A DNA stretch of 62,008 nucleotides. It comes from an uncultured Oscillospiraceae bacterium. GTDB lineage: Bacteria; Bacillota; Clostridia; Oscillospirales; Oscillospiraceae. The stretch covers positions 1-62,008 of the forward strand of contig CANRDC010000006.1 in the NCBI GenBank assembly GCA_947629245.1, given 5' to 3'. Positions 6,147 through 23,148 of the stretch are shown in pieces. Position 1 is the first letter of the stretch; the number at the start of each line of letters is the position of its first letter. A program made the translations under genes and the position numbers. The notes under the pieces are model-generated. The model searched no databases, was not told where the DNA came from, and worked only from the letters and a program-made list of their open reading frames with translations.

Positions 6147-8360
6147 TCACACCGGCAGGGGGAGGGTCTGGCCGGGCGTCGTGTCCAGGTCGATAGTCCG
6201 CCCGTTGACGAGAAGGCGGGCCGTGCCGCCCAGGCGGGACAGGATCGTGCCCTCCGTCACACGGCCCTGCTTCCAGCGGAAGCTGAGCGTGAAGCCGCCC
6301 CGGACGCGCACGCCCTCCAGTGCGCCCTCGGGCCAGTCCGGGGGCAGGGCGGGCAGCAGCCGGATGGGCCCCTGGTGGCTCTGCACCAGCATCTCCAGGA
6401 TTCCCGCCGTGCCGCCGAAGTTGCCGTCGATCTGGAAGGGGGGATGGTAGTCGAAGAGATTTGGCAGGGTGCTTTTTGCTAGCAGGGCCCGCAGGTGCTC
6501 CCCGGCGGCCTCGCCGTCCCCCAGGCGGGCGAAGAAGTTGATGATCCAGGCCCGGCTCCAGCCGGTGTGGCCGCCGCCGTTGGCAAGGCGGCGCTCCAGC
6601 GTTTTCCGGGCGGCGGCCGCCAGCTCCGGCGTCCTCTCCGGGTCGATCTGCCAGCCGGGATACAGCCCGTAGAGGGGGGAGATGTGCCGGTGGCCCGGCT
6701 CCCACTCCTCATAGTCCTCCAGCCACTCCCGGATGCCCCCCGACGCGCCGGTCCGATAGGGCGGCAGCCGCCGCAAAAGCCCCGGCAGAGCCTCGGTCAG
6801 TTCGTCCCCCGCCTCCAATATCTCCGCGCACCGGAGCGTGATCTCGAACAGCTCCCGGATGATGGCGGTGTCCATGGTGGGACCCGCGCACACCGAGGTC
6901 TTTTGGCCGGTGGCCGGGTCGATGTAGCTGTTCTCCGGGGAGCTGGAGGGGGCGGTCACCAGCCAGCCCGTGCCGGGGTCCTCTACCAGCAGGTCCGCGA
7001 AGAAGCGGGCGCTGCCCTCGACGACGGGCCAGTATTGCCGGAGGAAGTCCTCGTCGCCGGTGTACAGATAGTGCTCGTACAGGTGGCGGCAGCACCAGGC
7101 CCCGCCGCACAAAAAACCGCCCCAGAGCGGGTCCTGTCCCGGCGCGGTGAAGCCCCAGGGGTTGGCCAGCACATGGGCCACCCATCCCCGGCAGCCGTAC
7201 ATGATCCGGGCGGTCTCGGCCCCGTGCTCCGCCAGGAAGGCGATGTAGCGGTAAAAGCTGTCCCCGTACTCCTCCAGGCCCGCCGCGTCCACGAACCAGT
7301 AGTTCATCTGCACGTTGATGTTGATGTGGTAATCCCCGGTCCAGGGGGCGGCCATGTCCCTGCACCAGACGCCCTGGAGGTTGGCCGGGAGACGGCCCCA
7401 GGCGGAGCCGATGAACAGATACCGGCCATAGTCGAAGTACAGCCGGACAAGGCCCAGGTCCCGCGCGCCCCGCCGGACCCGCTCCAGCCGCCGGTCCGTG
7501 GGCAGCGCCTCCAGCTCCGGGTCGGCGGGCAGCTCCAGCGCGCAGCGGCCCATGGCCTCCGTCACCCAGGCGGCCTCCTCCGCCAGCACCGCTTCAAAGC
7601 CCATGGTCCGGGCCGCGGCGAGCCGCTCCCGGCACAGAGCCTCCGGGTCCTCGGAGCGCCTGTAGGTGGTGGCGGTGGAGGTCCAGATGATAAGATAGCT
7701 CCCGTCGGATACAGTCAGCGCGCCGTCCCCGGCGGCGACGGTCCCGTCCGTGTCCACGCACACGACCGTGCAAAACCCCATGGCGCCGGGACCCCGCTGC
7801 AGGCCCCGGACCAGGATCCCGCCCGCTTCGTAGGAAATGTCGCACGATTCCCGGACAAAGCGCAGCGCGTACCGGTCCGCGCCGGTGACGCGGCTGGCGG
7901 TGACCTCCCGCCGGTGGGAGACGGTGTGTACCCGCCTGACGGGGCCGAAGCGGGTCTGCGCCGCGCCCCGGTCCAGGTCCAGCTCCCGGACATACCCGGA
8001 GGTGTCCGGGGCGGGGCTGTCGATGAAGAGAGACCCGGCGGTCTGATAGCTGCCGTAGTAGGCGTCGTCGCTGCCGCCGCCCAGGCATACCTGGTACTTC
8101 CGGCAAAGCGCCTCTGCCTCCTGGGGGCGGCGGTCGAACAGAAGCCGCCGTATCTCCGCCAGATGCTCCCGGCAGGCGGGGTCGTCCCATTGGGCGGGGT
8201 AGCCGCTCCAGAGGCTCTCCTCGTTGAGCTGGAGCTCCTCCCGCTCCGTGCCGCCAAAGACCATCATGCCCAGACTGCCGCCCCCCAGAGGCAGCGCCGT
8301 GTTCCAGTCCTCCGCCGGGCGGTCGAACCACAGCCGACGGGAAAGCCGCGTCCTGTCCAT
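6147..8360 (-). CDS. Glycoside hydrolase family 95 enzyme (alpha-L-fucosidase type)
   Basis: A 737-residue cytoplasmic enzyme (no signal peptide). The N terminus RLWFDRPAEDWNTALPLGGG and the NEESLWSG block are typical of GH95, whose members remove alpha-1,2-linked L-fucose, or in some cases L-galactose. The active-site block YHININVQMNYW is at about residues 344-355; the Asn residues in this block (N347 and N349) correspond to those used by characterised GH95 fucosidases. Start 8360 follows AAAGAGG. It is transcribed away from the LacI regulator, sharing its upstream region. Within the locus it would remove terminal fucose from imported oligosaccharides. Confidence 0.9.
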   Translation of the reverse strand: MDRTRLSRRLWFDRPAEDWNTALPLGGGSLGMMVFGGTEREELQLNEESLWSGYPAQWDDPACREHLAEIRRLLFDRRPQEAEALCRKYQVCLGGGSDDAYYGSYQTAGSLFIDSPAPDTSGYVRELDLDRGAAQTRFGPVRRVHTVSHRREVTASRVTGADRYALRFVRESCDISYEAGGILVRGLQRGPGAMGFCTVVCVDTDGTVAAGDGALTVSDGSYLIIWTSTATTYRRSEDPEALCRERLAAARTMGFEAVLAEEAAWVTEAMGRCALELPADPELEALPTDRRLERVRRGARDLGLVRLYFDYGRYLFIGSAWGRLPANLQGVWCRDMAAPWTGDYHININVQMNYWFVDAAGLEEYGDSFYRYIAFLAEHGAETARIMYGCRGWVAHVLANPWGFTAPGQDPLWGGFLCGGAWCCRHLYEHYLYTGDEDFLRQYWPVVEGSARFFADLLVEDPGTGWLVTAPSSSPENSYIDPATGQKTSVCAGPTMDTAIIRELFEITLRCAEILEAGDELTEALPGLLRRLPPYRTGASGGIREWLEDYEEWEPGHRHISPLYGLYPGWQIDPERTPELAAAARKTLERRLANGGGHTGWSRAWIINFFARLGDGEAAGEHLRALLAKSTLPNLFDYHPPFQIDGNFGGTAGILEMLVQSHQGPIRLLPALPPDWPEGALEGVRVRGGFTLSFRWKQGRVTEGTILSRLGGTARLLVNGRTIDLDTTPGQTLPLPV

Positions 8361-8497
8361 AAAAACGCCTCTTTTCTGTTGGGATAGGTCCGTCTTGCGC
8401 TTTGTCCGCGCGTCTGGGCGTATTATTCATCATTTTCCGGCAAAAAGCAACGGGGTCCCGATGGGTTTTGGCTTTGTCACCAAAGTGGGAGGAAAGA

Positions 8498-8508
8498 ATT
8501 GTGCAAAA
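8498..8508. promoter_or_regulatory. Candidate LacI-family operator half (ATTGTGCAAAA)
   Basis: ATTGTGCAAAA occurs here between the divergent GH95 and lacI-type genes, and its exact reverse complement TTTTGCACAAT occurs at 12623-12633 ahead of the ABC permease gene. The core TTG-NN-CAA is near-palindromic as in LacI-family operators. Assignment is inference from recurrence at the two places where the locus would need control. Confidence 0.4.
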
Positions 8509-8540
8509 CGACAAAAATGCCGGGAAAACCGGATACCTGA

Positions 8541-8569
8541 TTGACGTGTTAGTGAATTTTTACTATAAT
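8541..8569 (+). promoter_or_regulatory. Promoter of the LacI-type regulator gene
   Basis: TTGACG (8541-8546) and TATAAT (8564-8569) are separated by 17 bases, 54 bases before the start codon. Confidence 0.75.
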
Positions 8570-8623
8570 TTCCGCATAGAGAAATCGTTTTCCATGTACC
8601 TATTGCCGGAGAGGTGAGTCGAA

Positions 8624-9631
8624 ATGGTGACGCTGCGGATGCTGTCCCAGCGATGCGGCGTATCGGTGGCCGCGGTGTCCAAGGCCCTGAACGGCCAGCA
8701 GGGCATCAGCGCGGAGAAGGCCGCGCTGGTGCGCCGGATGGCGCGGGAGATGGGCTACTGCCCCAACGCCGCCGCCCGGACGCTCAAGACCCATCGGAGC
8801 ATGAACATCGGCATCCTCTTTAAGAATGTGATGGCTCATGAGTATTTCTCCGCGATCCTGGAGGGCATCCGGGAGACGGCGGAGGGGCGCGGCTACGACA
8901 TCACCTTCCTCAGCAACGTCTCCGGGGAGCATGGGTACTATGAGCACGCCATGCGCCGTCAGTGCGACGGGGTCATCATCGTCCAGCCGGGTTACAGCGA
9001 GGCCGACCAGGCCGAGGCGCTGAAGCTGGCCCAGAGCGATCTGCCGGTGGTGGCCATCGACCAGGTGTTCCGGGGCCGCTCCTCGGTCACGGGGGACAAC
9101 GCGGGCGGTCTGGAGGAGGTCGTGGAGTATCTCTGCGGCCTGGGCCACAGGCGTCTGGCCTTCATCCACGGCGAGATGGGGGACGTGACCCGCCAGCGGC
9201 TGGAGGGCTTTACCAGGGCCTGCCGGGACAGGGGGATACCGGTCCCGGAGGAGTACGTCATCCAGAGCCGGTATCAGAACCCGGACGCGGCGGCGCAGGC
9301 CACCCGTCAGCTTCTCCGGTGCGAGACGCTGCCCACCTGCGTGCTCTACCCGGACGACACCTCCTGCCTGGGAGGCATGGCGGAGCTGCAGGCCCACGGC
9401 CTGGCCGTGCCGGAGGATATCAGCTGCTTCGGCTACGACGGCAGCCGCGTCGCCTCCCTGGTCCGCCCCACGCTGGCCACCCACAACCAGAACTGCCGGG
9501 GCATCGGCCAGCAGGCCGTTCTGGAGCTGGTGAGAGCTATGGAGGCCCCGGAGGACTTTTCGCCCAGAACGGTCACCGTCACCGGGACTATCCAGCCGGG
9601 CGGGACGGTGAAGGACCTGACCGGGCGTTGA
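8624..9631 (+). CDS. LacI family transcriptional regulator of the glycan locus
   Basis: A 335-residue DNA-binding regulator. Residues 3-50 form the LacI helix-turn-helix (LSQRCGVSVAAVSKALNG) with the hinge region ending NAAARTLKTHRS; the rest is a periplasmic-binding-protein-like sensor domain (IGILFKNVMAHEYFSAILEG, later CFGYDGSRVASLVRP). It starts at ATG 8624 after GAGAGGTGA. Placed between the divergent GH95 gene and the phosphorylase/transporter genes, it most likely senses a breakdown product and controls both arms. The candidate operators at 8498 and 12623 are consistent with this. The sugar it senses is not known. Confidence 0.92.
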   Translation: MVTLRMLSQRCGVSVAAVSKALNGQQGISAEKAALVRRMAREMGYCPNAAARTLKTHRSMNIGILFKNVMAHEYFSAILEGIRETAEGRGYDITFLSNVSGEHGYYEHAMRRQCDGVIIVQPGYSEADQAEALKLAQSDLPVVAIDQVFRGRSSVTGDNAGGLEEVVEYLCGLGHRRLAFIHGEMGDVTRQRLEGFTRACRDRGIPVPEEYVIQSRYQNPDAAAQATRQLLRCETLPTCVLYPDDTSCLGGMAELQAHGLAVPEDISCFGYDGSRVASLVRPTLATHNQNCRGIGQQAVLELVRAMEAPEDFSPRTVTVTGTIQPGGTVKDLTGR

Positions 9632-9665
9632 GGATCGATATCAGTTTTCCTTAGGGGGAGCGCGT

Positions 9666-12569
9666 ATGTATTTTCAGACGGAACAGGCCAGGACCCAGAC
9701 CCTGACCGCCAAAGAAGTCATAGGGAAGAGCTTCGCGGGGCAGACCGGCGACGCCTCGCTGGACGCGGAATTTCTCTCCGCGGACCGGACAGCCGCGCTG
9801 GGCTTTCTGGGCCTTCCCTATGAAGCGCCCGTCTGCGCGTATCTCATGAACCGACCGGCGACAGCCGCGTACATAGCCCGCTTTGACCGGGACCAGGCCT
9901 TCCGGGTGGAGGGCGAGCGGGTGCTGCACCTGACCGGAGCGGACGAGACGGAGGTACCGGCGGATGTGGCGGCGGAGGTGCTGGACGTATACCGCCGGGT
10001 GCTGGCCAGCCCCGGCCAGCTCAACGACAAGGGCGAGCTGCTGCTGGACCTGAAGGCCTATCCCGTGGGCCTGCACTACCCGGTCAATCTGCTGCTGGGG
10101 GATCGGGCCGGGTATCCATACCCGCTGTGCACCACCCCCAAGAGCGCGCTGGATGGCTTTGGCCGGGGCTCCTTCCGGGCCTCCGGCGGCACCCAGGTGC
10201 TGGCCACCCGCTGCGTGCTCCAGCCGGAGGAGAACGGCGAGCCGGTGAACCGCCAGTTTTACCTGGTCGAGAACGGCGGGCAGATCTTCTGCTCCTTCAA
10301 CGTGCGGGAGAACGTGGCGTCCGCCCACTGCCTGCACGGCCAGAACCGCAGCGTCATCACCTATGAGACGGACTGCGGCCTCGCCATCCGCCGGACGATC
10401 TTTCTGCTGCCCCAGGAGAAGGGCATGCCCACGGCGGTGGAGGCCCAGCGGGTGGAGATCGAAAACCACACGGACCGGGACCGGACGCTGAAGATCGTCA
10501 TGACCGGCATGTTCGGCATCGCCGACCCGTCCACCGTGGCCAACGACGTGGTCTTCGCCAACATCGTGGCCCAGAGCGAGGTCTGGTACCGGGACGGGAA
10601 GCCCGCCGCCATGACCATGCACCACAAGCCCCGGAACTGCCGGGGCGAGAAGCGTTTCGCGGCGCTGCTGTGCCAGGGGGAGGGCTTCGACGAGTTCTGC
10701 ACCAGCCTGCCGGACTTCATCGGCAGAGGCACCCTGGACCGGCCGGAACTGGCCGCCCACCTGCCCAGCCGGTACAGCCGGAAGATGGCGCCGTTTTTCG
10801 CCATGGGCAGGACCTTTTCCGTGAAGGCCGGTCAGACGGCGGTCGTGGACGAGTTCGTGGGCATGCTGGAGACGGAGGGCGACGCGGCGGAGGAATTTGA
10901 CGGGGCGCTGGCCTGTCTGCTGGAAAAGTATGCCGACCCCGCCGCCTTGGCGGAGACGCTGCGGGGCGTCGTGGAGTTCTGGGACCGGTATGGGGCCTAC
11001 CTGGAGCCGGAGACGGGGGATGGGCGGCTGGATGTGTACGTGCGGCGGAACCTGCCCTTCCAGGTGCTGTATCAGACCTATGTGTCCAGGGCCTTCGCCT
11101 GGACCCAGAAGTCCTACCGGGAGACGGGCTTCCGGGAGATCCAGGACATCTACGCGTCCATGTACTACCTGTGCGCCAGCGGCAAGAGCGCTCTGGTCAA
11201 GGAGCTCATCGGCACATGGGTGCAAAACGTGTTCGCCATGGGCTACGCCTACCACAACTTCACCTTCCGGGGCAAGGAGCCGGGGGACTGCTCGGACGAC
11301 CAGCTGTGGCTGGTCCAGGCGGTGTACCGGTACGTGACGCTGACGGGAGACTACGGCTTTTTGCGGGAAAAGTTCCCCGTGGCGGGGACGGATACGGTCC
11401 GGCCTTTGTGGGACACCGTCATGGCCATATTGGAATACAGCGGCGATATCTCCGTGGGGGCCCACGGTCTGCCGCTGCTGGACAAGGCGGACTGGAACGA
11501 CACCCTGCGGCTGGACCGGGAGGTGCTGGACGGGCCGGAGAAGGAGCGGCGCTATCGCCGCCAGCTGGAGGAAAAGGGCCAGCGCTGGGGCGCTGCCTGG
11601 GACAATACCCTGTCCGAGAGCGTGATGAACGCCTGCCTTTTGAAGATCGCCGCCGACGAGGCGGCGGAGATGGCCGGGCATATCGGCCGGGAGGCCGACG
11701 GGGAAAGGGCGGCGGCCCTGGCGTCGCGGGTGGCGGAGAGCATGCGGCAAAACGCCTGGAAAAACGGCTATTACGCCCGCTGCCTCATCAACGACGGTCG
11801 GCCCTATACATACCTGGGCGCGCCCGGCGACGGGCTCAGCCTGGACCCGGACGTGGACGGCAGCTACTACCTCAACTCCTACAGCTGGGCCATCCTGGCG
11901 AGGGCGGCCACGGAGGAGCAGATCGGCTCCATGCTGGACGCGGTGGAGAAGTACCTCAAGACCGACGCGGGACTGAAGCTGTGCACGCTGGTCAACTACG
12001 ACCTGCTGGGGGTCGACACCGGTACGGCGCTGTACTTCCCCGGCGACCGGGAAAACGGCGGCGTATTCAAGCACGCGGCCATGATGGCCACGGTGGCGTC
12101 CCTGCAGGCGGCCAAGACCGTGAAGGACCCGGGTCTGGCCCGGCGGCTGGCGGAGCTGGCGTTTTTCATGATCGGACGCACAGTCCCCTACAGGACGCTG
12201 GACGATCCGTTCGTCCTGAAGGGGAATCCCCGCTTCTGCACCCAGTACAACAACAGCGAGACCGGGGAGAACATCGGCCCCATGCTGTCCGGCACCGCCT
12301 CCTGGCTGAGCCTGGCGGTATATGAATTTTTGGGCGTGGATGTGCGCAGGGATACCCTCCGCTTCGCGCCGGTGCTGCCGGAGGGCCGGGAGCGGATGGC
12401 CTATACGCTGCGTCTGCCGGACGGGACGGTCCGGGTGGAGATCGAGGGGAGCCGGGATAGCTTCCGGGCGGGCCCGGAGAGCGTCTATACCCTGGACGGA
12501 GAGAGTGTGGGCCAGCAGATCCCCCGGCCCGCGGACGGCGGCGAACACTTGGTGAAGATCATCCTGTGA
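9666..12569 (+). CDS. GH94-like carbohydrate phosphorylase
   Basis: A 967-residue cytoplasmic protein of the GH94 (former glycosyltransferase 36) superfamily. GH94 enzymes split beta-glucosidic bonds in cellobiose, longer cellodextrins or chitobiose with phosphate, giving a sugar 1-phosphate. The N-terminal ~400 residues fit the beta-sandwich region; the (alpha/alpha)6 barrel carries SDDQLWLVQAVYRYVTLTGD and the KADWNDTLR block, in which the second Asp (about D612) aligns with the catalytic acid of the family. The C-terminal part has YNNSETGENIGP and a final beta-sheet domain. It is longer and more divergent than classic cellobiose phosphorylase, so the exact substrate is open. It lies 34 bases after the regulator gene. 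Confidence 0.8.
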   Translation: MYFQTEQARTQTLTAKEVIGKSFAGQTGDASLDAEFLSADRTAALGFLGLPYEAPVCAYLMNRPATAAYIARFDRDQAFRVEGERVLHLTGADETEVPADVAAEVLDVYRRVLASPGQLNDKGELLLDLKAYPVGLHYPVNLLLGDRAGYPYPLCTTPKSALDGFGRGSFRASGGTQVLATRCVLQPEENGEPVNRQFYLVENGGQIFCSFNVRENVASAHCLHGQNRSVITYETDCGLAIRRTIFLLPQEKGMPTAVEAQRVEIENHTDRDRTLKIVMTGMFGIADPSTVANDVVFANIVAQSEVWYRDGKPAAMTMHHKPRNCRGEKRFAALLCQGEGFDEFCTSLPDFIGRGTLDRPELAAHLPSRYSRKMAPFFAMGRTFSVKAGQTAVVDEFVGMLETEGDAAEEFDGALACLLEKYADPAALAETLRGVVEFWDRYGAYLEPETGDGRLDVYVRRNLPFQVLYQTYVSRAFAWTQKSYRETGFREIQDIYASMYYLCASGKSALVKELIGTWVQNVFAMGYAYHNFTFRGKEPGDCSDDQLWLVQAVYRYVTLTGDYGFLREKFPVAGTDTVRPLWDTVMAILEYSGDISVGAHGLPLLDKADWNDTLRLDREVLDGPEKERRYRRQLEEKGQRWGAAWDNTLSESVMNACLLKIAADEAAEMAGHIGREADGERAAALASRVAESMRQNAWKNGYYARCLINDGRPYTYLGAPGDGLSLDPDVDGSYYLNSYSWAILARAATEEQIGSMLDAVEKYLKTDAGLKLCTLVNYDLLGVDTGTALYFPGDRENGGVFKHAAMMATVASLQAAKTVKDPGLARRLAELAFFMIGRTVPYRTLDDPFVLKGNPRFCTQYNNSETGENIGPMLSGTASWLSLAVYEFLGVDVRRDTLRFAPVLPEGRERMAYTLRLPDGTVRVEIEGSRDSFRAGPESVYTLDGESVGQQIPRPADGGEHLVKIIL

Positions 12570-12671: not shown

Positions 12672-12758
12672 ATGAGCCCTCGGGTCTGTGACGTGCCGGT
12701 TCGGCGGCCGGCCGGGAGAGGAGACGGAAACCGCCAATCTTCATTTGGAGGGATGCTT

Positions 12759-14201
12759 ATGCCAGAAGCAAAGACAAAGACCAGACCGGACGGGCTGTAC
12801 ATACTGCATCGGGTCGCGATCCTGTTTGCCTGCGCCGCCGTGTTCTATCCCGGCTTCAATCCGGGGCGGATCACGACGGAGATCAGCCGGTACACCTCGC
12901 TTTTGACCTCGTGCCTGTCCTATGAGTCCCTGGTGGGGAATCTGGGCCGGGTGCTGACGAAGGGCATCGTCCAGCGGAGCACCTTTGTGCTGCTCATGTG
13001 CGCCAGCGTGGTGATCCTGATCGGGATCATCCTGGCGGCGGTGGGAGGCTGTATGTCCGTGGGCAACGGCCTGATGCGCCGCAAGGGCCTGCGCTATCCC
13101 GTCATCGGCTCGGTCCTCATGGGCGTGGGACTGGTTGGGATCTATGTGGCCTACACCCAGATCGTGGCGGCCGACTCCAAACGGGTCCCGCCCAACATCT
13201 CCGGCGGGTTTTACCTCTTCATCGTCCTGGCGGCGGTCATCCTTCTGACCAGCGCGGCGCTGCTGCTGCGCAAAAAGGACGAGGCGCTGGAGGAGAAGAT
13301 GGGGATGAAGGAGGAATACCATCTGTTCCTGCTGTTCCTGCCGTTTCTGGCGCTGGCGTTCGTGTTCTCCTATCTGCCCCTGTGGGGCTGGCGCTACGCC
13401 TTCTTCGACTACACCGCCGGAGGCACCCTGAGCGCGGACAACTTCGTGGGCTTCAAGTGGTTCACCTATCTGTTCCAGAACGCGGCCACCCGCAAGGACC
13501 TGTTCCGGGTGCTGCGCAACACCCTGGCCATGAGCAGCCTGGGCATCCTCACCAGCTGGCTGCCCATGCTCTTCGCCATTCTGCTGACCCAGGTGAACAG
13601 CAAGCGCTTCCGGCGCATCGTGCAGACCTTCACCACCGTGCCCAACTTCCTGGGCTGGGTCATCGTCTACGCCGTCGCCCTGGCGATCTTCTCCACCGAC
13701 GGCTTCATCAACAGCTTCCTCAAAAACTTCCTGCACGTCCAGGCCAACACCAACTACCTCATGAGCAGCAGCCATATGTGGATCAAGATGCTGCTGTGGG
13801 GACTGTGGAAGGGCCTGGGCTGGAGCGCCATCATCTATATCTCCTCCATCTCCGGCATCGACCCGGCGCTGTATGAGGCGGCCACCATGGACGGCGCGGG
13901 CCGGTTCCGGAAGATCTGGAACGTGACCATCCCCCAGCTGATGCCCACGTTCTTCGTGCTGCTGCTGATGAGCATCGCGGGCATTTTGTCCAACGGCCTG
14001 GACCAGTACCTGGTGTTCTCCAACGCCATCAACCAGAACGCCATCGAGGTGCTGGACCTGTATGTGTACAACCTGGGCATCGGCAGCGGCCAGATCCCCA
14101 TGTCCACCGTCATCGGCATGGCCAAGTCCATCATCAGCGTGGTCCTGCTCTTCGGCGCCAACCAGGCCTCCAAGGCCCTGCGCGGCGAGAGCATCATTTA
14201 A
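12759..14201 (+). CDS. Sugar ABC transporter permease (LplB type) with extra N-terminal membrane region
   Basis: A 480-residue permease of the LplB/YtcO class that forms half of the importer channel. The conserved permease part is the C-terminal ~295 residues, with the EAA loop EAATMDGAGRFRKIWNVTIP. The first ~180 residues are unusual: about four further hydrophobic helices (for example VVILIGIILAAVGG and GSVLMGVGLVGIYVAYT) and a charged KKDEALEEK linker. Classic LplB proteins are near 300 residues. Start 12759 was preferred over ATG 12753 because the GGAGGG site ends at 12752, leaving a normal 6-base gap. No ATPase gene is nearby, so a shared MsmX-type ATPase is expected. Confidence 0.9.
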   Translation: MPEAKTKTRPDGLYILHRVAILFACAAVFYPGFNPGRITTEISRYTSLLTSCLSYESLVGNLGRVLTKGIVQRSTFVLLMCASVVILIGIILAAVGGCMSVGNGLMRRKGLRYPVIGSVLMGVGLVGIYVAYTQIVAADSKRVPPNISGGFYLFIVLAAVILLTSAALLLRKKDEALEEKMGMKEEYHLFLLFLPFLALAFVFSYLPLWGWRYAFFDYTAGGTLSADNFVGFKWFTYLFQNAATRKDLFRVLRNTLAMSSLGILTSWLPMLFAILLTQVNSKRFRRIVQTFTTVPNFLGWVIVYAVALAIFSTDGFINSFLKNFLHVQANTNYLMSSSHMWIKMLLWGLWKGLGWSAIIYISSISGIDPALYEAATMDGAGRFRKIWNVTIPQLMPTFFVLLLMSIAGILSNGLDQYLVFSNAINQNAIEVLDLYVYNLGIGSGQIPMSTVIGMAKSIISVVLLFGANQASKALRGESII

Positions 14202-15185: not shown

Positions 15186-16928
15186 ATGAAAAAGTACACC
15201 AAGAAGACCCTCGCGATGCTGCTCACCCTGGTCATGACGGTCAGTCTGCTGGCCGGTATGGGCGGCAGCGCCCTCGCCGCCGACGACGAGGTGACCACCC
15301 TGACGGTCTACAGCCAGCTGGCCAACTTCTCCGGCACCCAGGGAGGCTGGAGCTCCGTGCTGCTGAAGGACAAGTTCGGCATCGAGCTGGTGATCGTGCC
15401 CGAGACCGACGGCACCTATGAGACCCGTATGGAGAACGGCGATCTGGGCGACATCGTGGTCTGGGGCTCCAACGACACCAACTACCAGAACGCGGTGGAT
15501 CAGGGCCTGCTGTATGACTGGGAGGAAGATGACCTTCTCAACGAGTACGGCCCCTACATCGCGGAGACCTTCGGCGACGCGCTGGACGCCAACCGGGAGA
15601 TCAACAGCGACGGGCTGCTGCACGGCTTCGGCCACAACCTGGCCCTGTCCACCGACAACCACGAGAACTTCTTCTACACCTGGGATATCCGTTGGGACCT
15701 GTATAAGGAGCTGGGCTATCCCGAGGTCAAGACCCTGGACGACCTGGTGGAGGTCTTTGCTCAGATGAAGGAGCTGGCTCCCACCGACGACAACGGCAAC
15801 CCCACCTACGCGGCCAGCCCCTGGCCCGACTGGGACGGCGACATGGTCATGTATGTGAAGAGCACCGCTCAGAACATCACCGGCTATGACGAGATGGGCC
15901 TGGGCCTGTACGACTCCGAGACCGGCGAGTATCACGGCGTGCTGGAGGAGAACGGCCCCTACATGCAGGCGCTGAAGTTCTATAACAAGCTCTATCAGCG
16001 CGGTCTGCTGGACCCCGACTCCATGACCCAGAACTACAGCCAGATGCAGGCCAAGGTCACCAGCGGCGGCGTGTTCTTCTCCATCTTCGACTATGCCGGT
16101 TCCACCCTGTTCAACACCGACAAGCACCTGGAAGAGGGCAAGTACATGACCAGCCTGCAGCCCACCGAGACCAACAACATCGCCTACGGTCTGAGCCTGG
16201 CCGGCGGCATCCGCGTCTGGTCCATCGGCAACTACACCGACTATCCCGAGAAGTGCATGGAGTTCATCAACTGGATGGCCACCCCCGAGGGAGCCATGAC
16301 CGGCTGGTACGGCCCCAAGGGCCTGATGTGGGACTATGACGAAGAGGGCCACACCTACTTCACCGAGCTGGGCCTGAAGTGCCACAACGATCCCACCACC
16401 GACCTGACCGGCGTGGAGTGGACCAGCCCCGACACCGGCAAGACCTATACTCTGGACGGCACCTTCAACGACGGCATGATCCAGATCAACAACACCACCT
16501 GGTCCCAGTCCGCCGAGAACCCCGACTCCATTGAGGGCGAGACCTTCCACTATTCCTCCTGGGACAGCATGAAGGGCGAGGCCAAGAACGAGGCCGAGCA
16601 GGATTGGCGTGACCACAACGGCGGCGTGCGCACCAACCAGGAGTATCTGGAGCAGCAGAGCTACAGCATCATCCCCGGCGTGAACTACTCCGCCAGCACC
16701 CGCTCCACGGAGCTTGAGCTGACCTGGTCCCAGGTGACCACCGCTGTGAAGCAGGGCTCCTGGAACGCCATCTATGCCGAGAGCGACGAGGAGTTCGACC
16801 AGATCGTGGCCGACATGGTCGAGCAGTGCGAGGCTTACGGCTATGCCGACTGCCTGGCCTGGGGCGAGAACGAGGCCGCGCTGAAGTATCAGCTGCAGGT
16901 CGACGCCGGTCTGAGCCCCGCCAAGTAA
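15186..16928 (+). CDS. Extracellular solute-binding protein of the sugar importer
   Basis: A 580-residue LplA/YesO-type receptor that would catch oligosaccharides outside the cell and hand them to the two permeases. The signal peptide (MKKYTKKTLAMLLTLVMTV, then SLLAGMGGSALAA-DD) ends in an AxA site but has no cysteine, so it is not a lipoprotein by sequence. That is unusual for a Gram-positive binding protein. The mature part begins with TLTVYSQLANFSGTQGGW and ends KYQLQVDAGLSPAK. Start 15186 follows GGAAGGA. Codon use is strongly biased to C-ending codons, suggesting high expression. A terminator-like stem follows. Confidence 0.92.
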   Translation: MKKYTKKTLAMLLTLVMTVSLLAGMGGSALAADDEVTTLTVYSQLANFSGTQGGWSSVLLKDKFGIELVIVPETDGTYETRMENGDLGDIVVWGSNDTNYQNAVDQGLLYDWEEDDLLNEYGPYIAETFGDALDANREINSDGLLHGFGHNLALSTDNHENFFYTWDIRWDLYKELGYPEVKTLDDLVEVFAQMKELAPTDDNGNPTYAASPWPDWDGDMVMYVKSTAQNITGYDEMGLGLYDSETGEYHGVLEENGPYMQALKFYNKLYQRGLLDPDSMTQNYSQMQAKVTSGGVFFSIFDYAGSTLFNTDKHLEEGKYMTSLQPTETNNIAYGLSLAGGIRVWSIGNYTDYPEKCMEFINWMATPEGAMTGWYGPKGLMWDYDEEGHTYFTELGLKCHNDPTTDLTGVEWTSPDTGKTYTLDGTFNDGMIQINNTTWSQSAENPDSIEGETFHYSSWDSMKGEAKNEAEQDWRDHNGGVRTNQEYLEQQSYSIIPGVNYSASTRSTELELTWSQVTTAVKQGSWNAIYAESDEEFDQIVADMVEQCEAYGYADCLAWGENEAALKYQLQVDAGLSPAK

Positions 16929-16963
16929 GCGGGCCTTAGCGCCGAGAGCAAAACCTTTTCCCG

Positions 16964-17010
16964 CGGGGAGCGGAGCCAACCGTTGACCCGGCTCCGCTTC
17001 CCGTTCTTCT
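16964..17010 (+). terminator. Hairpin with T-rich tail after the binding protein gene
   Basis: CGGGGAGCGGAGCC (16964-16977) pairs with GGCTCCGCTTCCCG (16990-17003) and is followed by TTCTTCT. It lies inside the transporter operon, where a partial terminator would keep binding-protein mRNA in excess over downstream genes. Confidence 0.55.
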
Positions 17011-17044
17011 ATCCCGGACACTGTCTGCGTCGAAAGGAGCGCCC

Positions 17045-17707
17045 ATGAAGCTGAGAGTGGATTCCCCCGTCATCCAGACCGGTATCCGGCTGGTGGACCT
17101 GCTGATCTTGAATCTGCTGTGGGCCGTCGGGTGTATCCCGGTGGTCACCGCGGGCGCGTCCACCATCGCGGCCTTCACCGTCACGCTGAAAATGGCGGAG
17201 AAGCGGGAGTCGTCCGGGGTCTTTGCCGCCTTCTGGACGGCGTATGGTAAAAATCTGAAGCACGGCGTCCCCCTGACGCTGTTCTTCGCCGTGGTAGTCT
17301 ACGGCATATGGCTGGACTGGCAGCTTTTTGAGAACCTGGAAGGAAACACGGTGGGCTTTCTCATCGTGGGGGTCCTGGCCGGTTTTTTCCTGCTGGTCCA
17401 TTATCTCTACGTGTTCCCCCTGGAGGCCCGGTACGCCAACACCATGTGGAGGAGCCTGGCCAATTCCCGGCGCATCTTCATGCGCTTTTTTGTCCGCACC
17501 CTGGGGCTGATCGGCATCCTGGTCATCCAGGTGCTGCTCTTCACCCAGATCAGCTATCTGCTGCTGTACATCGGCATTTTTTGTCTGCCGATCCTGATGA
17601 TCTATACCACCAGCCAGATCGTCATGCCCATCTTCCGGCAGATCGAAAAGGACGGCGCCGCCAGCGACGGTTTCTCCATCGACCGGGAGGGCTATTCCAT
17701 CCACTGA
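17045..17707 (+). CDS. DUF624 (YesL-like) membrane protein
   Basis: A 220-residue membrane protein with about five hydrophobic segments (LLILNLLWAVGCIPVVTAGAS at the start, then FLIVGVLAGFFLLVHYLY, and YLLLYIGIFCLPILMIY). The N-terminal helix followed by GCIPVVTAG is the hallmark of DUF624/YesL. Such proteins are nearly always coded beside LplB/LplC-type polysaccharide importers, as here. Their biochemical role is not established; an accessory part of the importer is the usual guess. AAAGGAG precedes the ATG. Confidence 0.88.
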   Translation: MKLRVDSPVIQTGIRLVDLLILNLLWAVGCIPVVTAGASTIAAFTVTLKMAEKRESSGVFAAFWTAYGKNLKHGVPLTLFFAVVVYGIWLDWQLFENLEGNTVGFLIVGVLAGFFLLVHYLYVFPLEARYANTMWRSLANSRRIFMRFFVRTLGLIGILVIQVLLFTQISYLLLYIGIFCLPILMIYTTSQIVMPIFRQIEKDGAASDGFSIDREGYSIH

Positions 17708-17719
17708 AATAAAATATAC

Positions 17720-17756
17720 GGCGGGGTCTTCCCGCCTGGAAAATATATGCTATAAT
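17720..17756 (+). promoter_or_regulatory. Small hairpin and extended -10 promoter before the alpha-xylosidase gene
   Basis: GGCGGG-GTCTT-CCCGCC (17720-17736) may end the upstream transcript. TGCTATAAT (17748-17756) is an extended -10 element; no clear -35 is seen, as is usual for extended -10 promoters. The GH31 start is 38 bases downstream. Confidence 0.5.
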
Positions 17757-17794
17757 CATCCTCACTACGATTCAGACAACAGGAGGGACGTTCC

Positions 17795-20041
17795 ATGAAA
17801 TTTCACTATGGCGAATGGCTTTTGCGTCCGGGCGTCAAGACATACAACTGCGAGCAGATCCGGCAGGTCCGGGTGAGCGAGGACGGGCGGGAGGTATACC
17901 TTTTCGCGGTGCCGTACCGGAAGGATGAGCGGAGCCTGGACGGCCCCGCCCAGGAGATCTGCATCAGTTCGCCTCAGCCGGATATGCTGCGGCTGCGGAC
18001 GGTGCATTTCAAGGGCGTCCGGCGCAAGACGCCGCGCTTTGACCTGGACGATCAGCGCTGCCCGCTGGACGTCCGGGAGGACGGCGACATGCTTCAGATC
18101 GCCTCCGGTCTGCTGCGCCTGGAGATCCACAAAGCGCCGCCCTGCACCCTTACATATTACTACGGGGACCGGAAGCTCACCAACGTGGGGGAGCGGTTCG
18201 GCTCCGCCATGCTCAGCTATGTGGACGCGCCGGAAGGGCCCTTCATGAGCTGCCAGCTGCAGGTGGACGTGGGGGAGAAGCTCTACGGCATGGGCGAGCG
18301 GTTCACGCCCTTCGTCCGCAACGGCCAGACCGTGGACATCTGGAACGAGGACGGCGGCACCTCCAGCGAGATATCCTACAAGAACATCCCCTTCTATCTG
18401 AGCACCAACAGCTACGGCGTTCTGGTGGACGACACGGGTCCGGTGTCCTTCGAGGTGTGCTCCGAGGCGGTGACGAAGGTGCAGTTCAGCGTCCCCGGCC
18501 AGAGTCTGGACTTCATCCTGATCGGCGCGCCGGACAGGAAGGGCGTTTTGAGCCGGTATACGGCGCTGGCGGGCCGTCCGGCCCTGCCGCCCGCCTGGAC
18601 CTTCGGCCTGTGGCTTTCCTCATCCTTCACCACCAGCTACGATGAAAAGACCGTCGCCAGCTTCGTGGACGGCATGCGTGAGCGGAACATCCCGCTGCGG
18701 GTGTTCCACTTTGACTGCTTCTGGATGCGGGAAAACGAGTGGTGCGGCTTTGAGTGGGACCGGGACATGTTCCCCGACGTGGAGGGGATGCTGGCGCGGA
18801 TGCACGAGAAGGGGCTGAAGATCTGCGTGTGGATCAACCCGTATCTCGCCCAGCACAGCCCCGCCTTCGACGAGGCGGCGGAGAAGGGGTATCTGCTGAA
18901 AAAGTCCGACGGCGACATCTGGCAGTGGGACCTGTGGCAGGCTGGCCTGGCGGTAGTGGACTTCACCAACCCGGAGGCCGTGAAGTGGTATCAGGCCAAG
19001 CTTCGCCGCCTCATGGACCAGGGGGTGGACTGCTTCAAGACGGATTTCGGCGAGCGCATCCCCACCGACGTGGTCTACTACGACGGCAGCGACCCCCAGC
19101 GGATGCACAACTACTATACCTACCTCTATAACAAGGCGGTGTTCGAGGTCATCCAGCAGGTGAAGGGCGAACGGGAGGCCGTTCTCTTTGCCCGCAGCGC
19201 CACCGTGGGCGGCCAGAAGTTCCCCGTCCACTGGGGCGGCGACTGCAACAGCACCTATGTGTCCATGGCCGAGTCTCTGCGGGCGGGCCTGAGCCTGTGC
19301 CTGAGCGGATTCGGCTACTGGAGCCACGACATCGGCGGCTTTGAGGGCACCGCTCCGGCGGATGTGTACAAGCGCTGGCTGGCCTTCGGCCTTCTCAGCA
19401 CCCACTCCCGGCTCCACGGCTCCAACTCCTACCGGGTTCCCTGGCTGTTCGGGGAGGAGGCGGTGGACGTGTGCCGCCGGTTCTCCAAGCTGAAAAACAC
19501 CCTCATGCCCTATCTGTACAGCCAGGCGGCGGCCAACAGCCGCACGGGCGTGCCGGTGATGCGGGCCATGCTGCTGGAGTTCGACGACCCCGGCTGCGAG
19601 GAGCTGGACCGGCAGTATATGCTGGGCGACGCGCTGCTGGTATCGCCGGTGCTGCGCTCCGACGGCAGCGTGGACTATTACCTGCCCAAGGGGACCTGGA
19701 CCCACCTTCTCACCGGCGAGACGGTGGAGGGCACTGGCTGGCGGCGGGACAGCTACGACTTTTTCTCCCTGCCGCTGTACGTGCGGCAGAACACCATCCT
19801 GCCCGTTGGCGGTCGGGACGACCGGCCGGACTACGACTATACGAAGGACCTGACAGTGCGGCTGTACGCCCTGGCCGACGGCTGCCGTGCGGAGCGGGAG
19901 GTCTGCGATATGGACGGAGAGCCGGTCCTTTCCATCAGCGCCGAGCGGACCGGAGACGAGATCGCCGTGACCGTCCGGGGCAGGGCGGAGGGCCTGAAGG
20001 TGGAGCAGTTCGGCACGGACTGCCGGATAATGATCAAGTAA
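17795..20041 (+). CDS. yicI: GH31 alpha-xylosidase (YicI type)
   Basis: A 748-residue cytoplasmic enzyme that removes alpha-1,6-linked xylose from the reducing-end-distal side of xyloglucan oligosaccharides such as isoprimeverose units. The nucleophile block FKTDFGERIPTD is at D417 and the acid/base block HWGGDCNSTY at D483, one residue off from E. coli YicI (D416, D482), and total length is close to YicI's. The N-terminal beta-sandwich, GEKLYGMGERFTPFVRNGQ and the C-terminal sheets are all present. The start follows AGGAGG. It has its own extended -10 promoter and is followed 21 bases later by the GH42 gene. Confidence 0.94.
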   Translation: MKFHYGEWLLRPGVKTYNCEQIRQVRVSEDGREVYLFAVPYRKDERSLDGPAQEICISSPQPDMLRLRTVHFKGVRRKTPRFDLDDQRCPLDVREDGDMLQIASGLLRLEIHKAPPCTLTYYYGDRKLTNVGERFGSAMLSYVDAPEGPFMSCQLQVDVGEKLYGMGERFTPFVRNGQTVDIWNEDGGTSSEISYKNIPFYLSTNSYGVLVDDTGPVSFEVCSEAVTKVQFSVPGQSLDFILIGAPDRKGVLSRYTALAGRPALPPAWTFGLWLSSSFTTSYDEKTVASFVDGMRERNIPLRVFHFDCFWMRENEWCGFEWDRDMFPDVEGMLARMHEKGLKICVWINPYLAQHSPAFDEAAEKGYLLKKSDGDIWQWDLWQAGLAVVDFTNPEAVKWYQAKLRRLMDQGVDCFKTDFGERIPTDVVYYDGSDPQRMHNYYTYLYNKAVFEVIQQVKGEREAVLFARSATVGGQKFPVHWGGDCNSTYVSMAESLRAGLSLCLSGFGYWSHDIGGFEGTAPADVYKRWLAFGLLSTHSRLHGSNSYRVPWLFGEEAVDVCRRFSKLKNTLMPYLYSQAAANSRTGVPVMRAMLLEFDDPGCEELDRQYMLGDALLVSPVLRSDGSVDYYLPKGTWTHLLTGETVEGTGWRRDSYDFFSLPLYVRQNTILPVGGRDDRPDYDYTKDLTVRLYALADGCRAEREVCDMDGEPVLSISAERTGDEIAVTVRGRAEGLKVEQFGTDCRIMIK

Positions 20042-20062
20042 GAGAGCGCGGAGGAGAGAGCT

Positions 20063-22027
20063 ATGATACAGGTCGGAATGGCCTATTATCCCGAGCACTG
20101 GGACCGCTCGCTGTGGGAGAAGGACGCCTCCCGGATGGCGAAGCTTGGCGTACACGCGGTGCGTCTGGCGGAGTTTGCCTGGAGCCGGATGGAGCCGGAG
20201 GAGGGGCGGTTCGACTTTGGCTGGCTGGACGACGCCATCGACGTCATCGCCCGCCACGGGATGCGGGTGATCTTGAGCACGCCCACCAACAGCGGGCCCA
20301 TGTGGCTGTACACGGACCACCCGGAGACGGTCCAGTGGGGCCGTGACGGGCGGCCCACGGACCTGGGCATCCGGGGCCACCGGTGCATCCAGAGCCCGGT
20401 GTTCCGCCGCTACGCGGGCAGGATCGTGGAGGAGATGGCCCAGCGCTACGCCGGGCGGCCCGAGATCCTGGCCTGGCAGATCGACAACGAGCTGGAGAGC
20501 AACCACTGCACCTGCCCCTCCTGCCGGGAGGCCTTCCGCCGCTGGCTGCGGGAGAAGTACGGCACGGTGGAGGCGCTGAACAAAGCCTGGGGCAGCGAGG
20601 TCTGGAGCGGCGAGATCAGCTCCTGGGAGCAGATCCAGCCCCTTCTTGCGCCGGATTGCATGCCGGACTGGCACAATCCCGCCTTCATGCTGGACTATGA
20701 GCGCTTCGGCGCCTGGTCCCTGGCGGACTTCATCCAGCGGCAGCGGGACATCATCAAGGACCATGACCCGGACGCGATCGTGACCACCAACAGCTGGTTT
20801 TGCGCCAATATGCCGGACTTCTATCAGGAATTCGCCTCGCTGGATGTGGCGGCCTACGATAACTATCCGCCCATGGACCTGCCGGAGGATGGGGAGACGC
20901 TGTATTCCAACGCCTTTGGCCTGGACCTGGTCCGGAGCTTCAAGCGGAAAAATTTCTGGATACTGGAGCAGCTTGGCGGCGCGGGCGGCTGCTGGAGCCC
21001 CATGGGTCCCGCCCCCTGGCCGGGGATGATCGAGGGCTACGCGCTGCAGGCGGTGGCCCACGGGGCGGACCTGGTGAGCTTTTTCCGCTGGCGCTCGTCC
21101 TGCTCAGGGGCGGAGATGCTGGGCCACGGGGTGCTGGACCACGACGACCGGGACAATCGCCGCCTGGCGGAGATCGGGCGGTTCTGCCGTCGGCTGGAGG
21201 CGATGCCGGAGCTGGACAGGACCGGCCTGCACAGCGATGTGGCGATGCTGTACGGCCCGGACCAGGAGTTCGTCCTCAAAAACCAGCGCCAGTCCCGGAA
21301 TTTTGCTTACTGGACCCAGCTGCGGCTGTTCCACGACGCCTGCATGGGTCTGGGGGTCAATCTGGACGTGGCGCCGGAGAGCGCCGCGCTGGAGGGCTAT
21401 AAGGTAGTGCTGGTCCCCACCCATTATGTGACGGACCCGGCGCTGGCGGCCCGGCTGGAGGCGTTCGCCGCCGGAGGCGGCACGGTGGTGGTCACGAACC
21501 GCAGCGGCGTCAAGGACAAGCACAACAACTGCATCTTCGGCGAGGCGCTTCCCACGGTGTTCCGGCGTCTGTGCGGCTGCCGGGTGGAAGAGTATGACGC
21601 CATCGGCGACGACCGTCGGCATATCGCCGCGGTCAACGGCGGCAGCTTTGCCGTCACCGGCTGGTGCGACCTGCTGGAGCCGGAGGGGGCCCAGGTCTGG
21701 GCCCGGTATACGGAGAAATTCTACGCCGGTACGGCGGCGATCACGAAAAACGCCTTCGGCGCGGGCTGGGCCTACTATGTGGGCGCCGTGGGCGAGCGGG
21801 CCCTGTACCGGTCGCTGCTGCTGGAGATCTTCCGGGCGCAGGATATCCCGGTGCTGACCGCGCTGCCCCAGGGTGTGGAGGTCACCACCCGCAGCGGCGA
21901 GGGCGGGACCTACCGCTTCTTCTTCAACGATACCCTCCACGGCAAGACCTTCCCGGTGGACGGGCAGATGGTGTCGCTGCGGCCCATGGAGATGAAGATC
22001 CAGGGCGAGGGAGGCGAGTGGCTGTGA
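20063..22027 (+). CDS. GH42 beta-galactosidase
   Basis: A 654-residue cytoplasmic enzyme that removes terminal beta-galactose (some members act on alpha-L-arabinopyranose). It opens with the family motif GMAYYPEHWD. The acid/base is E143 in AWQIDNELES, followed by the Cys-containing metal-binding strand CTCPSCREAF; the nucleophile is E302 in WILEQLGG. Domain order is TIM barrel, trimerisation domain (VVLVPTHYVTDP), small beta domain. Start 20063 has GGAGGAGAG upstream. It shares an operon with the alpha-xylosidase and the next gene, whose start overlaps this stop. Confidence 0.94.
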   Translation: MIQVGMAYYPEHWDRSLWEKDASRMAKLGVHAVRLAEFAWSRMEPEEGRFDFGWLDDAIDVIARHGMRVILSTPTNSGPMWLYTDHPETVQWGRDGRPTDLGIRGHRCIQSPVFRRYAGRIVEEMAQRYAGRPEILAWQIDNELESNHCTCPSCREAFRRWLREKYGTVEALNKAWGSEVWSGEISSWEQIQPLLAPDCMPDWHNPAFMLDYERFGAWSLADFIQRQRDIIKDHDPDAIVTTNSWFCANMPDFYQEFASLDVAAYDNYPPMDLPEDGETLYSNAFGLDLVRSFKRKNFWILEQLGGAGGCWSPMGPAPWPGMIEGYALQAVAHGADLVSFFRWRSSCSGAEMLGHGVLDHDDRDNRRLAEIGRFCRRLEAMPELDRTGLHSDVAMLYGPDQEFVLKNQRQSRNFAYWTQLRLFHDACMGLGVNLDVAPESAALEGYKVVLVPTHYVTDPALAARLEAFAAGGGTVVVTNRSGVKDKHNNCIFGEALPTVFRRLCGCRVEEYDAIGDDRRHIAAVNGGSFAVTGWCDLLEPEGAQVWARYTEKFYAGTAAITKNAFGAGWAYYVGAVGERALYRSLLLEIFRAQDIPVLTALPQGVEVTTRSGEGGTYRFFFNDTLHGKTFPVDGQMVSLRPMEMKIQGEGGEWL

Positions 22028-23148
22028 ATTTCCAGCCGGTCACGGAGTTTCTGGACGGGGTGGAGGCCCGCTGGGGCGTGCCCGCCTGCGAGTGTATCGT
22101 GGCCCGGGACCACCGGGTCCTGTACCGCCACTGGGCGGGCCATATGGGCTGGGGCGCGCCCAGCGAGCCGCTCCGGGGCGGGGAGTGGTACTGGATCTAT
22201 TCCTGCACCAAGCTCATGACCATGACCGCCGCGCTCCAGCTGTGGGAGCGGGGCGAGCTGGGTCTGGACGACCCGGCGTCTAAGTATATCCCGGAGCTGG
22301 GCGCGCTCACGGTCCGGGAAGGGGAAGCCGTCCGGCCCGCCAAGACCGCGCTGACCGTCCGCCATCTCATGACCATGACCGGGGGCTTCACCTACGACCA
22401 GACCACGCCCGCCATCCGGGCCGCCCGGGCGCGGAACGCGGGGACCCGGGACCTGATCCGGGCGTTGGCCGCCGAGCCGCTGGCCTTCGATCCGGGGACC
22501 CACTTCTGCTACAGCATGTGCCACGACGTGATGGCCGCGGTGATCGAGACCGTCTCCGGGGAGCGGTTTTCCGACTACGTCGCCCGGCACATCACCGGGC
22601 CCCTGGGCATCGAGGGCGTGACCTTCCGGCCCGGCGAGCGGGAGCTTGCGCGCATGCCGACGCAGATCTGCTGGCACGACCAGCGGCGGGAATTCTTCCT
22701 GACGGGCAAGGACAACTCCCACCAGCTCACGGCCGATTATGACTCCGGGGGCGCGGGTATCTGCTGCCGGGCGGAGGATTATGTGCCCTTTGTGGACGCG
22801 CTGGCCTGCGGCGGCGTGGGGGCCAATGGGGCCCGTATCCTTAAGCCGGAGACCATCGAACTGATGCGCGCCAATCAGCTTTCCGGCCAGACCCTGGCGG
22901 ATTACAACAACACCATGAAGCCCGCGCCGGAGGGCTACGCCCTGGGCGTGCGGGTGCATCTGGCGGACGACCGGTTCCCCAAAGGCGAGTTCGGCTGGGA
23001 CGGAGCGGCGGGCGCTTTGGCGGTCATGGAGCCCACCCGGCGGCTGAGCGTGTTTTACACGCAGCATGTGCTCAACTACCTGCCCAACTATTCCGAGCTG
23101 CACCCCGCGCTGATGGAGCGGATCTACCGGGCCGTGGACGGGAAATAA
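22024..23148 (+). CDS. Serine hydrolase of the beta-lactamase (class C) fold, likely esterase
   Basis: A 374-residue protein of the penicillin-binding-protein-like esterase family. The catalytic SxxK tetrad is SCTK (S60, K63), and YSMCHD near residue 160 fits the second motif (Tyr). There is no signal peptide, so a cell-wall target is unlikely. The most likely start is GTG 22024, which overlaps the GH42 stop as GTGA; GTG 22018 is an alternative. Being the last gene of the glycan operon, it may take acetyl or other acyl groups off the imported sugars. That role is inference from position. Confidence 0.82.
   Translation: MNFQPVTEFLDGVEARWGVPACECIVARDHRVLYRHWAGHMGWGAPSEPLRGGEWYWIYSCTKLMTMTAALQLWERGELGLDDPASKYIPELGALTVREGEAVRPAKTALTVRHLMTMTGGFTYDQTTPAIRAARARNAGTRDLIRALAAEPLAFDPGTHFCYSMCHDVMAAVIETVSGERFSDYVARHITGPLGIEGVTFRPGERELARMPTQICWHDQRREFFLTGKDNSHQLTADYDSGGAGICCRAEDYVPFVDALACGGVGANGARILKPETIELMRANQLSGQTLADYNNTMKPAPEGYALGVRVHLADDRFPKGEFGWDGAAGALAVMEPTRRLSVFYTQHVLNYLPNYSELHPALMERIYRAVDGK

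Follow-up and report, generated by a model that had tools for sequence, protein, structure and literature searches.

A putative cytoplasmic operon for xyloglucan oligosaccharides with a cellodextrin-phosphorylase-type GH94 in an uncultured Oscillospiraceae bacterium

Introduction

Xyloglucan is a common dietary fibre, and few of the systems that use it have been worked out. In Ruminiclostridium cellulolyticum, xyloglucan oligosaccharides (XyGOs) are reported to be converted by Xyl31A from XXXG to GXXG, from which Glu3A then takes the glucose, in a cycle that ends at cellobiose; the solute-binding protein (SBP) has a very high affinity for XXXG, and growth on xyloglucan requires the importer (PMC4780118). 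Here we analyse a 62,008-nucleotide stretch of DNA (hereafter the window; contig CANRDC010000006.1, C6, of assembly GCA_947629245.1, 3.08 Mb in 146 contigs, 87% complete) from an uncultured Oscillospiraceae bacterium. Its positions 6147-23148 hold ten genes, in which a divergent GH95 faces an operon encoding a LacI regulator, a GH94, two ABC permeases, an SBP, a DUF624 protein, a GH31, a GH42 and a serine hydrolase. We propose, with a probability of about 75%, that this locus is an operon for cytoplasmic XyGO utilisation in which the GH94 performs the backbone step. XyGO import and disassembly are already known; what is new here is a GH94 of the cellodextrin phosphorylase (CDP) type where the known XyGO system has a GH3.

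The window and R. cellulolyticum share a GH42 (Gal42A in the latter), a YicI-type GH31, a cytoplasmic route of disassembly and counterpart importers (TMD2456/2457/SBP2458 in R. cellulolyticum), each made of two permeases and an SBP with no ATPase of its own. In place of the XyGO-specific GH3 Glu3A and the two-component system of R. cellulolyticum, the window has the CDP-type GH94 and LacI, to which GH95 and the serine hydrolase are added. Its genes form one operon plus the divergent GH95, whereas in R. cellulolyticum enzymes and importer stand in two divergent clusters. Bacteroides xyloglucan utilisation loci (XyGULs) use SusCD; no SusC/SusD pair occurs among the ten locus genes, which encode an ABC importer instead. 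With the Xanthomonas and Bacteroides XyGULs the window shares the pairing of GH31 and GH95 for fucosylated xyloglucan, whereas the Xanthomonas XyGUL has a GH74, adjacent xylose genes and TonB-dependent transport in contrast to the ABC importer of the window; the available part of the source names no phosphorylase for these loci (PMC8245568). A termite-gut Treponema fosmid also unites GH31 and GH95 in one cluster but includes a GH74, and the excerpt that describes it mentions no CDP (PMC6298952). As for the phosphorylase, the R. thermocellum CDP (5nz7/5nz8) matches the window GH94 over its full length, with the N-terminal region, the catalytic Asp, the phosphate residues and most -1/+1 residues in common; the window enzyme differs in being about 44% identical to it, in belonging to a separate clade, in its xyloglucan gene context and in 13 distinct positions.

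Results

A cellodextrin phosphorylase-type GH94 in a clade of its own

Residues 8-964 of the window GH94 align to four distinct CDP sequences of the PDB at 815-827 bits (best match 826 bits). The match covers the N-terminal region, which is described as unique to CDP (PMC5667895). The other 15 PDB entries among the matches listed reach at most 92 bits, and on these scores identities as cellobiose, chitobiose, laminaribiose or beta-1,2-glucan phosphorylase were rejected.

CDP numbering was transferred through L058 (L and C numbers being our handles for loci and contigs), an aligned protein as long as the R. thermocellum CDP, and residue roles were taken from the literature (PMC5667895, PMC6720390). 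The catalytic Asp624 corresponds to D612 of the window enzyme, and the phosphate residues R486, H817, Q874 and S889 to R475, H803, Q860 and S875. E810, Y804 and the +2 residue D297 are found as E796, Y790 and D294, and Phe815 is kept too. Three residues are changed, the aromatic Tyr300 to Phe (F297), Cys625 to Thr and Glu328 to Asn, the first two changes being found also among the 27 canonical CDPs compared.

A family sample of 149 other genomes yielded no GH94 ortholog, the best match (96.7 bits, 26% identity) being a paralogous GH94. In the class sample, 27 of 390 other genomes match at E 1e-80 or better, all with 41-46% identity; from a scan of named genomes, the best 80 of 282 relatives were used. 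The resulting tree (FastTree, 85 rows, midpoint root; L117 and L127, shorter than 880 residues, left out and six class CDPs added) contains three groups: that of the window (27 rows, support 90), a sister group composed mainly of Erysipelotrichaceae (30 rows), and a third group (28 rows) with the canonical CDPs together with L120-L122 and L124 (about 50% identical to the window enzyme). The window's clade is about 44% identical to canonical CDPs. Members close to the window come from Oscillospiraceae metagenome-assembled genomes (MAGs) whose isolate names start with 'Lapin', a name that may point to a rabbit source. Atopobiaceae and Coriobacteriia members are interspersed among Bacillota in the clade, which suggests horizontal transfer or MAG mis-binning.

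At thirteen positions, 86-100% of the clade's enzymes have a residue in common that no more than 10% of the sister group and 15% of the third group possess. N293 adjoins the +2 Asp and L789 the +1 Tyr; the remaining positions are scattered over the protein. Two residues of the catalytic loop, K607 and T613, are further markers of the clade, yet are present in 27% and 40% of the sister group. The acceptor-site argument combines sequence with published structures.

Xyloglucan-type genes surround the GH94 clade

Neighbouring genes were counted by tblastn with the window proteins, at distances of up to 10 kb and on contigs down to 3.8 kb; L117 and L127 were by default assigned to the second group, and the six class CDPs (1.5-kb flanks) were excluded. 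A GH31, GH42 or GH95 lies near the GH94 in 18 of the 26 clade loci (window excluded), against 0/32 Erysipelotrichaceae-type and 0/22 third-group loci. The importer trio, that is both permeases and the SBP, accompanies it in 16/26, 0/32 and 0/22. When only loci of at least 14 kb are considered, the clade scores 16/22 for the enzymes and 15/22 for the trio, and the other groups 0/25 and 0/16 on either count. L085, L113 and L149 keep the gene order of the window, with 58-94% protein identity over the matched parts, and L077, L086 and L115 have a second kind of GH31 (by Pfam for L115 and L086).

Relatives contribute further functions. A second, 800-residue GH94 of cellobiose phosphorylase (CBP) type is present in 7 of 20 non-window loci labelled by hand as xyloglucan loci, a label also given to L118, whose short contig shows nothing but LacI and GH5 next to the GH94. 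One of these second-type enzymes, searched against the PDB, is a CBP (1084 bits), and three more are 60-79% identical to it. The kinases of L083, L086 and L149 (3/3 tested) exceed the cut-off for xylulokinase (XylB), and L083 encodes a phosphoketolase as well. GH5 enzymes in L075, L092, L104 and L118 resemble the GH5_4-like enzyme of the window's genome more than its GH5_2-like one; these subfamily names are presumed from PDB neighbours.

Three gene clusters that stand beside GH95 in relatives (c21, c26 and c27) were considered as fucose-catabolic. Two were rejected, as c26 is a GH43 and c21 is DUF4867; c27, tested in L085, has no NCBIfam match at E 1e-20. DUF4867 adjoins the xylulokinase gene in L149 (1680-3807); the genome of the window also encodes it, on a different contig (L156 177-2337), next to a XylB-like FGGY kinase. 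It may act in pentose metabolism. In L092 (10907-13120) and L104 (12931-15453), a large protein is encoded directly downstream of the GH94, with a leader and a C-terminal anchor suggested by alignment. It has no Pfam match at E 1e-6, the L104 copy has no PDB match either, and it is a candidate xyloglucan-binding surface protein. The clade enzymes of L074 and L084, 84% identical to that of the window, lie in a different neighbourhood without matches to xyloglucan enzymes.

A GH94 where other loci have a GH3

In the class sample, a YicI-type GH31 reaches E 1e-160 or better in 45 other genomes, and the neighbourhoods of all of these were fetched too (ten stretches were shorter than 12 kb). A GH3 lies within reach in 14 of these 45 GH31 loci and a CDP in none. 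Five of the 45 have the importer trio, with a GH3 in 4/5 and a CDP in 0/5. Conversely, none of the 16 trio loci of the CDP clade showed a GH3, nor did one occur among the window's ten locus genes, and the lone GH3 of the clade belongs to L131, a locus without the trio. Since the two samples were drawn by different genes, these counts describe exclusion in the loci seen and not a rate. Within these sequences, the replacement of GH3 by GH94 is a clear pattern.

The importer as a link to characterised XyGO uptake

Judged from the sequences, the importer is the strongest link of the locus to xyloglucan. Among the GH31 neighbourhoods, L186 reads GH42, two genes, GH3 and GH31, divergent from permease, permease and SBP. 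R. cellulolyticum Ccel_2451-2458 is described with the same gene order (PMC4780118), and on that ground we take L186 to be this species. The window SBP finds the L186 SBP at 247.4 bits, the next match being at 44.7 bits, and in the reverse search the L186 SBP finds the window SBP alone, at 238.6 bits; the two are hence reciprocal best matches. L163 has a closer importer relative (SBP 50% identity), with GH95, GH2 and GH31 around it as well as a GH74 xyloglucanase that scores 172 bits to a PDB GH74-type entry. This cluster, GH95-GH2-GH31-importer-unknown-GH74, is a XyGO locus in which neither GH3 nor GH94 was found in the stretch fetched.

Proposed pathway

The scheme builds on gene identities, catalytic residues, importer orthology, cross-genome association and the operator-like site; the substrate, the order of reactions, repression and the action of GH94 on a xylosylated backbone are what it predicts. 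Intact XyGOs would be imported by the SBP and the two permeases, powered by an ATPase encoded elsewhere, as proposed for R. cellulolyticum. Inside the cell, GH95 would take off fucose, GH42 galactose and GH31 the xylose at the non-reducing end, whereupon GH94 would phosphorolyse the exposed non-reducing-end glucose to glucose 1-phosphate. GH31 and GH94 would alternate, giving GXXG from XXXG, then XXG, and shortening the chain in this way as far as cellobiose, to be split by a CBP that is encoded on another contig in the window's genome and inside the locus in some relatives. Repression would come from the dedicated LacI, bound to a site immediately 3' of the -10 box.

The CBP lies on contig C43 and is 68% identical to that of L149; the GH94 of C16, also considered as CBP, is 31% identical, represents another kind of GH94 and was rejected. 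A XylB-like kinase on C16 is 68% identical to a relative's XylB, and C76 encodes, in a GH26/GH36 cluster, a GH5_4-like endoglucanase whose weaker matches include xyloglucan-specific endoglucanase and xyloglucanase entries. With these enzymes elsewhere in the genome a complete pathway is plausible, the endo-xyloglucanase activity being only putative, and the cell may rely on xyloglucan fragments made by others.

An earlier note on this DNA had proposed that whole XyGOs are imported and dismantled inside the cell. This reading gains support from the importer orthology, from the GH74 beside the importer relative and from the relatives that add CBP, XylB or GH5, and XyGOs are, by these sequence comparisons, very probably the substrate class. 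The cytoplasmic, energy-saving backbone step that it also put forward is consistent with a CDP-type GH94 replacing the known GH3.

Counter-evidence and alternatives

Several observations weigh against our proposal. The window SBP is just 30% identical to its characterised relative. YicI-type GH31 occurs in merely 7/26 clade loci (GH42 in 15/26 and GH95 in 9/26). Two of the 16 trio loci (L075, L079) end directly after the SBP, and some contigs stop early; in the 14 informative ones, GH31 is present in nine and was not seen in the stretch fetched in five (L076, L080, L081, L083 and L098). The substrate may therefore not be identical throughout the group, and this is the main result against a uniform one. 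The genome also has four GH3 genes, on C37, C16 and C43, whose products could attack the backbone. The GH94 retains most of the canonical +1 residues, and its specificity cannot be read from the sequence. Finally, in docking of CtCDP the 6-OH of the acceptor is near the catalytic Asp and hydrogen-bonds to it (PMC9293210), which might disfavour a 6-O-xylosyl group.

Some of these points fit a XyGO locus whose GH94 is an ordinary CDP for co-imported unbranched cellodextrins, with the xylosylated backbone cut by a GH3 encoded elsewhere, for which the four genes just named are at hand. We regard this arrangement as possible, if rather doubtful. The canonical catalytic, phosphate and +1 residues are kept except for Cys625, and the Thr found there occurs in some canonical CDPs too; moreover, most members of the sister clade have a CBP-type GH94 as tandem partner and lie in loci that lack xyloglucan enzymes and presumably serve cellodextrins. 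However, the described GH31/GH3 route ends at cellobiose (PMC4780118), and so would leave no cellotriose or longer chain for a CDP. That no GH3 was seen in the 16 trio loci also argues against it, as may the two clade-marking positions, of 13, that adjoin acceptor-site residues.

In the XyGO phosphorylase reading, by comparison, the demands on the enzyme are specific. The characterised alpha-xylosidase trims the non-reducing end only, so that substrates of the GXXG type would have to fit GH94; if the exo order is unchanged here, the glucose at +1 would reach the CDP still xylosylated, and no pure cellotetraose would form. In saturation-transfer-difference NMR of the R. thermocellum CDP, the hydroxymethyl of the acceptor's non-reducing ring is reported as the least contacted part of cellobiose (PMC9293210). 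Together with the docking result, the literature on CDP acceptor contacts is compatible with a xylosylated backbone but not decisive. CDP has been used in synthesis with xylosyl and glucosyl phosphates, giving products named xyloglucan oligosaccharides; the acceptors were xylo- and cello-oligosaccharides, and the reaction differs from XyGO degradation (PMC4336185). RalCDP is described as having some activity on carboxymethyl cellulose (PMC10119399). In a literature search judged mostly from titles and the beginnings of abstracts, no report was found of a CDP-type enzyme in a XyGO locus or degrading XyGOs.

The specificity of the GH94 for a xylosylated backbone is the interesting part of the proposal and stays tentative, at slightly less than even odds. 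With the same reserve, the whole clade could be XyGO phosphorylases, which would free the non-reducing-end glucose of GXXG as glucose 1-phosphate despite the 6-O-alpha-xylosyl group on the next glucose, and would replace the XyGO-specific GH3 in anaerobic gut bacteria, including Actinomycetota. If GH94 does act on the branched backbone, its specificity would be new among phosphorylases and useful in the preparation of defined xyloglucan oligosaccharides. It would then also be a clear example of a fermenter that saves energy by exchanging a hydrolase for a phosphorylase: with CBP, three of the four backbone glucoses per XXXG would be released phosphorylated, whereas the known pathway yields one of the four in this form. 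Which Gram-positive gut bacteria eat xyloglucan would also become easier to predict with a set of marker genes.

It is unlikely that the locus targets another beta-glucan or a galactose-containing oligosaccharide, for example mixed plant oligosaccharides, and that its xyloglucan-like set is coincidental. The five informative relatives with importer, GH94 and GH42 in which GH31 was not seen would agree with such a substrate; GH42 and GH95 also occur in other pathways, and the nearest GH95 structure is described as an L-galactosidase of a xylan system (PMC4491172). The YicI-type alpha-xylosidase in the operon, the importer orthology, the GH74 beside the L163 importer and the xylulokinase in relatives argue against coincidence. 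That several of the genes are remnants or of mixed purpose, without a joint function, is highly improbable: the full set is patchy among relatives and no GH94 ortholog was found in the 149 family genomes sampled, but the frames are open, the gaps short, the order kept in L085, L113 and L149 and the operator-like site conserved.

Operator-like sites upstream of the operon

The predicted operator, GAGAAATCGTTTTC, is the sole exact copy found in the genome, where two one-mismatch sites lie elsewhere. Of 14 upstream regions, 12 contain its half-palindrome RAAAWCGWTT, whereas 200 mononucleotide shuffles gave 0.095 on average and no more than 3; as the pattern was picked after viewing the regions and several of these are close kin, 12/14 overstates their independence. 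In nine of the 14 regions, the window included, a -10-like hexamer starts 13-17 bases ahead of a forward operator-like site. Some relatives have a second operator-like copy near the GH95 start, which the window does not. In L098, a histidine kinase gene lies upstream and no LacI match is seen, which resembles the regulation of the R. cellulolyticum locus.

Layout of the locus and neighbouring genes

All ten frames are open and the intergenic gaps are short (Table 1). For permease A and the SBP, the search queries started one codon ahead of the positions tabulated. Codon-position GC backs the frames, with a third-position GC of 0.85-0.93 in 9/10 genes and of 0.79 in the serine hydrolase, the latter computed on the longest frame, which begins well upstream of the gene start.

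Table 1 Predicted features of the locus, in window positions
Feature	Positions	Strand	Evidence
GH95, alpha-1,2-L-fucosidase type	6147..8360	-	Pfam GH95 catalytic domain 520.8 bits; PDB 4ufc 482, 7kmq 468 bits
Predicted sigma-70 promoter of the LacI-GH94 operon	8541..8569	+	-35 TTGACG, 17-bp spacer, -10 TATAAT
Predicted LacI operator GAGAAATCGTTTTC	8579..8592	+	Just downstream of the -10 box
LacI-family regulator	8624..9631	+	Pfam LacI and Peripla_BP_3
GH94 CDP-type, predicted backbone phosphorylase	9666..12569	+	PDB CDPs 815-827 bits full length; residues; tree
ABC permease A	12753..14201	+	PF00528; 55% identity to L186 permease
ABC permease B	14214..15152	+	PF00528; 49% identity to L186 permease
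SBP, signal sequence by eye	15186..16928	+	PF01547; reciprocal best with the characterised XyGO-binding SBP
DUF624/MusI-type membrane protein	17045..17707	+	PF04854 54.8 bits; NF052431 85.6 bits, under cut-off 160
GH31 YicI-type alpha-xylosidase	17795..20041	+	NCBIfam PRK10658 1163.7 bits (equivalog cut-off 606); YicI entries 890-903 bits
GH42 beta-galactosidase	20063..22027	+	PF02449 421 bits
PF00144 serine hydrolase, possible esterase	22024..23148	+	166 bits; GTG start overlaps GH42 stop

The gene set of the earlier note lies where it was placed, with GH95, LacI, importer and GH42 confirmed by Pfam, and what it called a GH94-like phosphorylase stands as a GH94, now refined to the full-length CDP type. 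Its YicI-like GH31 was borne out as well: the enzyme aligns to YicI over some 732 residues, and the catalytic Asp417 and Asp483 lie one residue on from YicI 416 and 482. The 'likely esterase' is a serine hydrolase of beta-lactamase fold with scores under every NCBIfam cut-off listed, which leaves it a possible esterase with a putative role on acetyl groups; the overlap of its start with the GH42 stop suggests coupled translation. In agreement with the statement that no enzyme has a signal peptide, none of the enzyme N-termini resembles one by eye, whereas that of the SBP does. The DUF624/MusI-type membrane protein, absent from the list in the note, is probably a transporter accessory.

In GH95, the HxNxN motif at 345-349 keeps the catalytic N347 and N349 and places His345 at the polymorphic Fuc/L-Gal site. 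Reading the specificity from this Thr/His site was considered and rejected: His indicates fucose, yet published mutants are reported to show that the position is not decisive (PMC8245568).

In the window and in L085 (15506-17233), a close relative, the SBP has no Cys at the lipobox position (LAGMGG and LAGIGG, respectively). Cys is present in the other 15 of the 17 SBPs inspected, with unusual boxes in L076 (LLSC), L113 (FAGC) and L081 (MSGC), and the lipid anchor may have been lost in the lineage of the window and L085.

Downstream of the locus, a separate cluster (23535-30931) contains two similar carriers that flank an alcohol-dehydrogenase-like protein, an FGGY kinase and a 2-hydroxyacid-dehydrogenase-like protein, the non-kinase genes being named by eye. 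This kinase (26883-28409) was tried as the xylulokinase of the locus and rejected, with 293.6 bits against a cut-off of 380.25. At 451-2424, a spermidine/putrescine-type permease and a binding protein, named by eye, are seemingly fused in one 657-residue frame beside other importer genes.

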